A DNA stretch of 62,954 nt, taken from contig NZIO01000033.1 of assembly GCA_002689925.1 (NCBI GenBank), forward strand, positions 1-62,954, in the 5' to 3' direction. This stretch comes from Candidatus Pelagibacter sp. Its GTDB lineage: Bacteria > Pseudomonadota > Alphaproteobacteria > Pelagibacterales > Pelagibacteraceae. Below the pieces are notes generated by a model. It did not search any database, was not told the origin of the DNA, and saw only the letters and a list, made by a program, of their open reading frames with translations. Of this stretch, positions 11,357-47,076 are shown piece after piece. Both the position numbers and the translations under genes were made by a program. The first letter of the stretch is position 1; each line of letters begins with the position of its first letter.

Positions 11357-11515
11357 TACCCCCTCTGTCTTGGTACCGGTGAGATTTGCTCCTTTGGTGA
11401 GAAATTATTCTCTTTCCAGAGTTAATATGGTTTTACGGTCCTTTTGCCTGAGAGTTTCCGGGGTGGTTGCTCCTTCGGCTCTATTAATTAAAATAGTATC
11501 TTCCGTAAAATTTAT
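11357..11515 (-). promoter_or_regulatory. Tandem glycine riboswitch in the glcB leader
   Basis: Read on the minus strand, the first aptamer contains GCCGAAGGAGCAA, then ACTCTCAGGCAAAAGGACCG and CTCTGGAAAGAG. These are the conserved core of glycine aptamers. A second, shorter aptamer follows directly with ACCAAAGGAGCAAATCTCAC, GGTACCAAGACAGAGGGGG, matching the second half of tandem glycine riboswitches with a G-to-A change in the CCGAAGG box. It ends about 16 bases before the glcB start. No U-tract terminator follows, and the GAGGGGG end could act as or hide a ribosome site, so translational control is plausible. SAR11 is reported to use glycine riboswitches on malate synthase. Confidence 0.92.
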
Positions 11516-45068: not shown

Positions 45069-45594
45069 AAAAACAAAATTTAAAAACTTGATAGTTATTA
45101 AACATAAGAGAAATGTTGATAAAAGAGGTAGCCTTAGAGAAACTTATATTAAAAAAAAAATTAATTGGGACAATTTTTTATTAGAATATGCAACTACTTC
45201 TAAAAAAAATGTTCTTAGAGGATTACATTTTCAATACAAGAATCAACAAGCTAAGCTAGTTACTGTTTTAAAAGGAAAAATCTTGGATGTAGTAGTTGAT
45301 TTAAGAAAAAATTCGAAAACTTTTGGCAAACATTATTCTATAATTCTTTCAGAAAAAAACTGTACATCGCTGTACATACCTAGAGGTTTTGCCCATGGTT
45401 ATTATAGTTATGATAAACTAAATATAATTTACTATAAATTGTCAGATTATTATAAACCACAATATGAAAATGGCATTATTTGGAATGATAAAAAATTAGG
45501 AATTAAATGGCCCAATAAAAAGCCCATTTTATCAAAAAAAGATGTAAAATTTGGATCTTTAGCTAATTTTAGCGAAAATTTTAAGGGACTTTAA
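45058..45594 (+). CDS. rmlC: dTDP-4-dehydrorhamnose 3,5-epimerase
   Basis: 178 residues. The cupin-fold enzyme epimerises dTDP-4-keto-6-deoxyglucose at C3 and C5. It shows the family motifs RGSLRETY, NVLRGLHFQYKNQQAKLVT (catalytic histidine in LHFQ), ILDVVVDLRKNSKTFG, YIPRGFAHGYYS and YYKPQYENGIIWND. It overlaps the preceding gene by 11 bases and ends the operon. About 200 bases with a hairpin follow before the small membrane-protein genes. Confidence 0.93.
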   Translation: MKIKKTKFKNLIVIKHKRNVDKRGSLRETYIKKKINWDNFLLEYATTSKKNVLRGLHFQYKNQQAKLVTVLKGKILDVVVDLRKNSKTFGKHYSIILSEKNCTSLYIPRGFAHGYYSYDKLNIIYYKLSDYYKPQYENGIIWNDKKLGIKWPNKKPILSKKDVKFGSLANFSENFKGL

Positions 45595-45750
45595 TTATTA
45601 CAAAACTTGTTAATTTTGCTTAAAGATGAAAAAATTGTTAATAAGTGTAAATAAACGTGCTTTTTAGGCAACATATTTCAAATTTTATCAATTAATTAGA
45701 CCCTAAATTAGTGTTTTATCTACATATAGTATGGTATTCTTAGCCAAATA

Positions 45751-45775
45751 CTACCGAAAGTGATTCGGTAGTTTT
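45751..45775 (+). terminator. Hairpin with short U-run upstream of the first small membrane-protein gene
   Basis: CTACCGAA (45751-45758) pairs exactly with TTCGGTAG (45764-45771) around a 5-base loop, followed by TTTT. It could terminate the rmlBAC operon, but it lies 156 bases past rmlC and only 30 before the small gene, so it may be instead a 5' leader hairpin or attenuator for that gene. A TATAGT sequence at 45725-45730 would fit a -10 box just ahead of the hairpin, without a clear -35. Confidence 0.55.
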
Positions 45776-45801
45776 ATAAATAAATAAACAAAGAGGTGCT
45801 T

Positions 45802-46017
45802 ATGAAAATGTTAGCAGGATTATCAGCAACATTTAATAGTTTAACTAGCGTAGTAATTTCTTTACTTGGACTAGGAATAGTAGTTTCTCTTCTTGGTGGG
45901 AATGTCCCATTTGTTGGAGAAATCGCAAGTAATATCGTTGGTTTAGTGCAAAGTCTAGGAGATGCAGGAATAGTTGGCTTAATTGCAGCTATTATAATCC
46001 TAGGTTTTTACAAATAG
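45802..46017 (+). CDS. Small two-helix membrane protein, copy 1
   Basis: 71 residues from ATG 45802, after a strong Shine-Dalgarno AGAGG six bases upstream. A GTG two codons earlier is also in frame but lies inside that site. The protein is almost all hydrophobic, with two predicted helices (about 12-31 and 49-70) joined by a short loop GGNVPFVGEIASN. The second half, NIVGLVQSLGDAGIVGLI, aligns with the product of the next gene (NLVDLLNSLGSQGIAALI), so the two are paralogues. I recognise no known family. The clear ribosome site and leader hairpin suggest strong or regulated expression. Confidence 0.72.
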   Translation: MKMLAGLSATFNSLTSVVISLLGLGIVVSLLGGNVPFVGEIASNIVGLVQSLGDAGIVGLIAAIIILGFYK

Positions 46018-46030
46018 TTAAAAGAAAAAA

Positions 46031-46056
46031 TTTTAGCTAACCCTCTGTAGCTAAAA
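46031..46056 (+). repeat. Hairpin downstream of the first small gene
   Basis: TTTTAGCTA (46031-46039) pairs exactly with TAGCTAAAA (46048-46056) around an 8-base loop. It begins 14 bases after the stop codon and could act as a terminator-like or mRNA-end structure, although no long U-run follows. Confidence 0.5.
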
Positions 46057-46064
46057 ATAAATTA

Positions 46065-46100
46065 CACCACCCTAATTTTAAAGTTATAATTAGGGTGGTG
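46065..46100 (+). promoter_or_regulatory. Strong 13-bp hairpin in the leader of the second small gene
   Basis: CACCACCCTAATT (46065-46077) is an exact complement of AATTAGGGTGGTG (46088-46100) with a 10-base loop. In such AT-rich DNA a 13-bp stem with seven G-C pairs stands out. It ends 25 bases before the ATG and just ahead of the AAGGAG ribosome site. A following U-run is absent, so a leader structure, or a processing or stabilising element between the two small genes, is more likely than a terminator. Confidence 0.6.
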
Positions 46101-46125
46101 AGCTTAAATTTAAAAAAGGAGAACT

Positions 46126-46362
46126 ATGAAGCCTTGGATTTCGAAGATTAAAAATTACTTAAACACTTTTCTTGAATTAGGTGTTCTTTTGTTAGCGGTA
46201 TCTGTGTTAGCAGAAATATTGTTTGGACCTGATGTTGCTTTTTTTGGCTCTCAAGTAACTAAAAATTTAGTTGACTTACTTAATAGTCTTGGGTCGCAAG
46301 GTATTGCAGCATTAATTATAGTGTTTGCTGTAATATTTACATATAGAAAATTATTAAAATAA
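46126..46362 (+). CDS. Small two-helix membrane protein, copy 2
   Basis: 78 residues. ATG follows an AAGGAG Shine-Dalgarno with good spacing, rare in this window. A basic amphipathic start (MKPWISKIKNYLN) leads into two helices (about 15-34 and 55-74) joined by FGPDVAFFGSQVTKN, and the end is basic (YRKLLK), as for a membrane protein with both ends in the cytoplasm. It shares V-x-F-x-G, N-[IL]-V-x-L-x-x-SLG-x-x-GI-x-x-LI with the preceding small gene. Function unknown. Its end faces the persulfide dioxygenase gene, 3 bases away. Confidence 0.72.
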   Translation: MKPWISKIKNYLNTFLELGVLLLAVSVLAEILFGPDVAFFGSQVTKNLVDLLNSLGSQGIAALIIVFAVIFTYRKLLK

Positions 46363-46365
46363 ATT

Positions 46366-47076
46366 TTATTTTTTAATAGTTTCTTCAAACTCTTTTAAGT
46401 TTATACCTTTAATATTTGCTGGTACGGCTATATCCATCATTTTAGGGCTCGATAATTTTAAATTTTTCATTAGCTCTACATATTCATCAACTGAATTAAC
46501 TTGCAATCTCGGATTATTTTTTTTTTGATCTCCGATAGTGCTTACTTTGTTACCTTTATAATCGTGAGCTGGATATACTAATGTTTCTGAAGGAAGTTTT
46601 AATAGCCTTTCAAAAAGTGAATGATACTGATCTTTGGAATTTCCGTTTTGAAAATCAGTTCTACCAGTTCCGTTAATAAGTAAAGTATCTCCTGTAAAAA
46701 CTCTATCCTTCATTAAAAAACTATAAGAGTCATCAGTGTGACCAGGAGTATAGATTGAAGTTAATTCTATATTTTCTATTTTTATTTTTTCACCATCTTT
46801 AACTTTCAAGGCAACTATTTCAGATAAAGATTTTTCACCCATGATTGTAAGGCAATTTGTTTGAGTTTTGAGTTCTTTTAGACCAGATATATGATCCGCA
46901 TGAATATGTGTATCTATAACTTTTACAAGCTTTAGTTTTAAACTATTTAAAATATCTAAATAATCTTGTGTATTTTCAATTACAGGATCTATTAATAAAG
47001 CTTCCCTACCTATGCCACTAGATATTATGTAAGTATAGGTTGAAGACTTAGTGTCAAATAATTGTTTAAATATCAT
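46366..47076 (-). CDS. Persulfide dioxygenase (ETHE1-like metallo-beta-lactamase fold)
   Basis: 236 residues from ATG 47076 (MIFKQLFDTKSSTYTYII matches the family start; an ATG four codons earlier is possible). The metal site THIHADHISGL, the later TPGHTDDSYSFL, FTGDTLLINGTGRTDFQNG and PAHDYKGNKVSTIG are characteristic of ETHE1-type enzymes, which oxidise glutathione persulfide to sulfite using one iron. It implies handling of reduced sulphur from cysteine breakdown. It is divergent from the peroxiredoxin gene. Confidence 0.9.
   Translation of the reverse strand: MIFKQLFDTKSSTYTYIISSGIGREALLIDPVIENTQDYLDILNSLKLKLVKVIDTHIHADHISGLKELKTQTNCLTIMGEKSLSEIVALKVKDGEKIKIENIELTSIYTPGHTDDSYSFLMKDRVFTGDTLLINGTGRTDFQNGNSKDQYHSLFERLLKLPSETLVYPAHDYKGNKVSTIGDQKKNNPRLQVNSVDEYVELMKNLKLSSPKMMDIAVPANIKGINLKEFEETIKK

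Follow-up and report, generated by a model that had tools for sequence, protein, structure and literature searches.

A conserved pair of predicted two-helix membrane proteins with RNA hairpins in SAR11 bacteria, and its relatives in Alphaproteobacteria and large marine phages

Introduction

The window analyzed here, a stretch of 62,954 nucleotides from Candidatus Pelagibacter sp. (assembly GCA_002689925.1, contig NZIO01000033.1), contains two short adjacent reading frames, designated P1 and P2, and three RNA hairpins in front of and between them. The locus raises the question of what the two frames encode, how widely they are kept, and what the hairpins and the proteins may do. A sequence-only reading had proposed highly or conditionally expressed membrane peptides with RNA-level control. 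Its observations of paralogy, strong ribosome sites and hairpins stood, and the conserved frames, the covariation and the tandem copies in relatives that it had asked for as checks were found. It had missed that the family reaches other Alphaproteobacteria and large marine phages. A literature search found no paper on the P1-P2 pair.

Results

P1 and P2 are paralogous genes under purifying selection

The two frames, of 71 and 78 residues, lie where they had first been placed (Table 1), and the three sequence motifs said to be common to both are present. A profile-profile comparison between P1 and P2 gives 91.4%, in agreement with the proposal that they are paralogous small membrane proteins. 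Both are real genes under purifying selection. Among 147 genomes of the taxonomic family to which the window belongs, P1 and P2 each have strong, full-length matches in 30, and 29 contain both; raising the limit to E values up to 1, which admits weak matches, gives 34 and 49 genomes, respectively. In one genome (G111), P2 is cut by a contig end, and in another (G008), P2 is present and no P1 was detected. Aligned columns are on average 91% identical in P1 and 82% identical in P2. A scan of genome contigs with P1 returned at least 48 loci; among the matches listed, all are titled Pelagibacteraceae, Pelagibacterales or Candidatus Pelagibacter. The presence in SAR11 is patchy, the pair family being found in 40 of 397 genomes of the taxonomic family and in 4 of 140 high-quality ones.

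Table 1. Features of the P1-P2 locus, with positions numbered along the window
Feature	Position	Strand	Description and basis
Putative promoter	45708..45735	+	TTAGTG, 16 nt, TATGGT; inferred
Leader hairpin	45750..45772	+	9-bp stem, 5-nt loop; compensatory changes in relatives
Shine-Dalgarno of P1	45792..45796	+	AGAGG; seen in sequence
P1	45802..46017	+	71-aa predicted two-helix membrane protein; median dN/dS 0.078 (234 of 435 pairs in the usable range)
Hairpin A	46031..46056	+	9-bp stem, loop with CCCUC; fold and relatives
Hairpin B	46065..46100	+	13-bp stem, 10-nt loop; covariation, regional z -5.2
Shine-Dalgarno of P2	46116..46121	+	AAGGAG; seen in sequence
P2	46126..46362	+	78-aa predicted two-helix membrane protein; median dN/dS 0.139 (149 of 300 pairs in the usable range; five rows with shifted starts dropped)

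Predicted topology and structure

Hydropathy and charge patterns of 48 members describe a common plan composed of two membrane helices, positive ends, and an acidic loop. On these patterns, the N and C ends of the family very probably both lie inside. No signal peptide is seen. The AlphaFold2 model of P2, built from 48 sequences, consists of helices at residues 3-33, 44-54 and 57-77 (pLDDT 83.4, pTM 0.51). A fold search with both models gave no structural match.

The size and the two-helix plan are similar to those of pilin-like subunits of secretion or conjugation systems, which form VirB2-like helical hairpins. One relative weakly matches TIGR03745 (E 0.0013, 18.5 bits) and DUF2976, which we take to be small two-helix, VirB2-like membrane proteins of integrative elements (ICEs). 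However, these 18.5 bits, the best among the relatives scanned, fall far under the curated TIGR03745 cut-off of 52.5 bits, no secretion or conjugation genes are recognized near the family (most neighbors being un-annotated), and the signal peptide is not seen. A pilin-like role is therefore hardly credible.

Relatives in other Alphaproteobacteria and in phages

By sequence comparison, P1 and P2 are members of an unnamed family of membrane proteins of about 75 residues. Profile comparisons with the phage copies give 98.7% for P2 and 97.7% for P1. A search with the phage profile detects the family in 25 of 240 genomes, or 22 of 203 genera, of a sample of the class Alphaproteobacteria. In two samples of the phylum, the window's own genome alone is positive (1 of 398 and 1 of 249). 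When 10 positives of the class sample were retested with the model of the phylum search, all 10 were recovered, so the gap between class and phylum most likely reflects sampling, not sensitivity. As found here, the family thus spans Alphaproteobacteria and phages, the phylum samples adding no further genome.

Reading of 35 genome regions identified 52 members, which stand in tandem in eight loci outside the order and in nine loci of the sister taxonomic family f154. Every positive genome of f154 (25 of 31) contains two matches, in the same gene order as P1 and P2; the pairing found in the window is kept in relatives, as the sequence-only reading had invited one to check. Single copies rather than pairs occur in several Alphaproteobacteria. 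Two genomes (G175, loci L205 and L234; G305, loci L208 and L235) each carry two single copies at separate places and no tandem pair.

In a tree, built from few columns, the first f154 gene joins P1 (96/94), the second joins P2 (92/99), and the phage copies form one clade. This grouping indicates that the pairing and its order probably predate the split between the window's SAR11 family and f154.

The absence of a recognizable domain, noted before, holds in that neither protein has a Pfam match above cut-off or an NCBIfam or PADLOC match. P2 has a sub-threshold match to Pfam DUF6366 (E 0.003). Ten relatives scanned against Pfam and ten against NCBIfam, including one phage copy in the latter, gave nothing above cut-off, and PADLOC returned one weak match in all among seven proteins (E 0.042, to a restriction-enzyme model). 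A sequence search of the PDB gave nothing meaningful. In a tblastn search of phage and plasmid records, no match was found for P1, P2, the phage copies at L141 and L178, or the relative at L203; for the phage copy at L140, the matches listed have E values of 3-5 and cover at most 64% of the query.

Strong ribosome sites and a putative promoter

Strong Shine-Dalgarno sites that are uncommon in this DNA had been pointed out for both genes, and relatives confirm the pattern. A Shine-Dalgarno match of at least 5 nt precedes 77% of P1 genes (n = 30) and 93% of P2 genes (n = 29), compared with 12.7% of 425 larger SAR11 ORFs. For the phage copies, the proportion is 97% of 38 copies (24 distinct proteins, near-copies being counted) over a background of 32% of 479. 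In other Alphaproteobacteria, first or single genes reach 66% (n = 35) and second genes 29% (n = 17) over a background of 18.5% of 394, where family starts were picked partly by their Shine-Dalgarno site, which favors the family. All backgrounds take the best of several starts, which favors the background. From these sites, P1 and P2 are likely to be highly expressed.

A -10-region motif of the TATATAGTATGRTA type occurs at a similar place in 17 of 30 leaders. A formal sigma-70 scan did not flag the putative promoter.

RNA hairpins are conserved and covary

The perfect stems seen earlier are present; the lengths of 9 and 13 bp given for two of them are right, and the first stem has 9 bp rather than 8. 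When 10 intergenic stretches of 50-400 nt between same-strand genes of the window were scored for folding, the P1-P2 spacer came out as the most structured (z -5.2), more so than expected by chance. The 29 SAR11 intergenic regions have a mean z of -4.45, and 23 of them score below -3.

Covariation, which had been proposed as a check, is clearest in hairpin B, where 8 of 12 pairs are changed on both sides in some sequence and 98.4% of cells are paired. These pair counts derive from 16 of 29 intergenic regions and 17 of 30 leaders, picked as alignable; in a plain alignment, the full set of 29 intergenic regions is too divergent for the purpose. None of 500 shuffles and no slid version reaches the whole-structure measures of the intergenic alignment. 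Hairpin A shows both-side change in 2 of 7 pairs and no more. In the leader hairpin, which probably lies near the 5' end of the mRNA, 3 of 8 pairs are changed on both sides and 99.3% of cells are paired; for the whole leader, the count of double-changed pairs is matched by 6 of 500 shuffles, and a second leader stem has no double changes.

The spacers of f154 form a strong single hairpin in nine of nine cases tested (mean z -5.61, all below -3), with quite different letters and without hairpin A; this rests on z-scores, as the nine sequences gave no useful alignment. Of eight other alphaproteobacterial pairs, two have a spacer z below -3, so an intergenic hairpin does not accompany every pair beyond the order.

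No intrinsic terminator (GC stem with U run) was found in positions 45590-46400, and a terminator reading was rejected for lack of a U run. The hairpins therefore look more like elements that stabilize or process mRNA, a role that we consider on balance the better guess from their sequence. A conserved stable stem between two genes is what characterizes an intercistronic hairpin, and such a stem is found here. In pufBA-type operons, adjacent genes encode small membrane proteins and a stem-loop shields the upstream message. P1 and P2 are likewise adjacent genes for small membrane proteins with an intercistronic stem-loop. They differ in that no sequence relation was noted, the hairpin lies between two small genes, and the stabilizing role is read from sequence. 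The intercistronic hairpin of Rhodobacter appears in the title of Klug 1987, as cited by PMC6238624. The motifs described in the consulted portion of a SAR11 structured-RNA paper (PMC2704228) differ from the hairpins of this locus.

By eye, the loop of hairpin A is of the CCUC/CUCC type in about 25 of the 29 SAR11 regions; a script count of 28 of 29 takes in some matches outside the loop. Pairing of this loop with Shine-Dalgarno sites could occur and is a lead, but pairing within the operon, judged by eye, is not convincing in all genera. The RNA itself might be the main product, with hairpins A and B released as a Shine-Dalgarno-binding small RNA. The recurrent CCUC-type loop and the covariation of the hairpins fit this idea, and there is precedent in the CcsR RNAs, which according to the portion consulted of PMC8625941 are cut from the 3' UTR of ccaF1, a small-protein mRNA of an alphaproteobacterium. 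P1 is likewise a small-protein gene of an alphaproteobacterium with RNA hairpins 3' of it; its protein is unrelated to that of ccaF1, and the small RNA here is hypothetical. A small RNA as main product is nevertheless very unlikely, considering that f154 retains one hairpin and lacks hairpin A, that both proteins are clearly under selection, and that no terminator was found.

Genomic neighborhood

The pair had been described as lying beside a sugar island. This neighborhood is incidental: it is not conserved in relatives, and a link to it was ruled out by the differing neighbors between genera. No neighbors recur across families, and most are un-annotated. The locus was also considered as a prophage remnant, and this was rejected, no common phage neighbors being seen on chromosomes.

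Several local arrangements were observed. In one SAR11 genus, the pair adjoins a divergent gene of about 113 aa that by eye resembles an SMR-type exporter (L085:11328-11678). In f154, the pair is followed by amino-acid ABC transporter-like genes (L229:6709-9003, a reversed locus), which lie 3' of the pair in the same order in the nine loci read. Elsewhere in the window, a glycine riboswitch aptamer occupies positions 11426-11515 of the minus strand.

Phage copies and their surroundings

The 38 IMG/VR phage contigs that carry the family (24 distinct proteins) belong to large marine phages, and each has one copy within the stretch covered. The gene occupies different places. In one phage lineage, it lies between an SbcC/SbcD-like gene and the terminase and portal genes. 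In L156 and L177, it is inside a tail-gene cluster, and in the L159-L174 group, it is next to an exonuclease gene, accompanied in L164 by a PurN-like gene.

In the first of these lineages (17 of the 38 loci), the family gene is directly 5' of c4, a gene of 63 aa. A distant relative of the c4 family (L145:8242-8433) occurs in Flavobacterium phages, where a D-Ala-D-Ala carboxypeptidase gene lies one gene away. The c4 of L175 weakly matches a PHROG holin (E 0.095) and that of L145 has no such match; c4 is a candidate holin on this basis. L178 and L179 are laid out alike; in L178, the genes downstream encode a GH25 endolysin, a lipoprotein-like protein whose Rz-like match is weak, and a coiled-coil membrane protein. 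A GH25 endolysin at the site of the family gene was recognized in L178 alone among those tested. The apparent link to lysis is limited, being confined to one phage lineage and consisting of weak matches and one endolysin. In the other two phage lineages, the family gene is away from recognized lysis genes, and no lysis genes are recognized near the bacterial copies.

Class II holins of phages are small proteins with two transmembrane helices and a charged C end. The P1/P2 family resembles them in its length of about 75 residues, two predicted transmembrane helices and charged C end, and, in one phage lineage, in having a holin-like gene as its neighbor. Unlike them, it has no holin family match, either for P1 and P2 (Pfam, NCBIfam, PHROGs) or for the phage copies (PHROGs and Pfam; one copy against NCBIfam), and the chromosomal pairs have no recognized phage neighbors.

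One 2.4-kb viral contig contains a stretch (L142:1-168) whose 168 nt are 96-98% identical to the P1 leader and the 5' half of P1. The stretch matches some SAR11 genomes and is followed beyond position 168 by phage structural-type genes; the contig is probably a chimeric assembly.

The same data bear on two further explanations. The proteins could form an abundant membrane scaffold, a structural assembly that organizes curvature or other proteins without a pore, with the phage copy maintaining or reshaping the membrane of the infected host. Strong ribosome sites in bacteria and phages, high conservation of P1 and P2, a lack of conserved neighbors beyond single families, and three different places of the phage gene all suit a scaffold. 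Against it speak the placement of the gene, in one phage lineage, at what is probably a lysis cassette and the patchy presence in SAR11, unexpected of a needed structural part; we regard a scaffold as possible but doubtful. Phage defence or lysis interference, in which the chromosomal pair acts as an antiholin or entry blocker against phages using the related protein, would account for a family common to phage and host, its patchy presence, and chromosomal sites that vary within the family. It is a distinctly improbable reading: PADLOC matches are lacking, defence-island neighbors are not recognized, and the genes show purifying selection, not fast change.

Discussion

We favor, at a probability of about 0.45, the reading that P1 and P2 form a hairpin-protected two-gene module of two-helix inner-membrane proteins that assemble into a heteromeric complex, possibly with holin-like action. 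The family was not filed as holin or pilin, nor the hairpins as terminators, because the defining feature of each was looked for and not found.

P1 and P2 would together make up an old two-gene module that has escaped annotation. A single transcript would start just 5' of the leader hairpin and carry strong ribosome sites for both genes. The intergenic hairpins would most likely keep exonucleases off the upstream message and determine how much P1 is made relative to P2. Each protein very probably sits in the inner membrane with a long helix at its N-terminal end and a second, transmembrane helix, joined by an acidic loop on the outer side that contains a short amphipathic helix. The most likely outcome would be that P1 and P2 come together as an abundant heteromeric complex in the membrane. 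The conserved pairing suggests such a complex, and we lean towards its existence.

The presence of a copy in phages suggests action on membranes, perhaps holin-like. The single-copy phage relative beside a holin-like gene in one lineage points to proteins that may open or organize the membrane; holin-like action itself is a tentative suggestion that we hold to be rather unlikely. A more elaborate scheme, a two-component holin/antiholin-like system common to bacteria and phages, is improbable. There, P1, P2 and the phage copy would interact in one membrane, and the host pair would either set or block the timing of phage lysis; alternatively, the host membrane complex would be subverted by the phage.

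The locus introduces an unannotated family of tiny membrane proteins in scattered Alphaproteobacteria and large ocean phages, whose SAR11 copy has features of high expression. Its conserved hairpins offer a compact natural case of what may be segmental mRNA control in streamlined genomes. Should the phage copy have a part in lysis, a membrane module of the host would be tied to phage release in an abundant group of bacteria.
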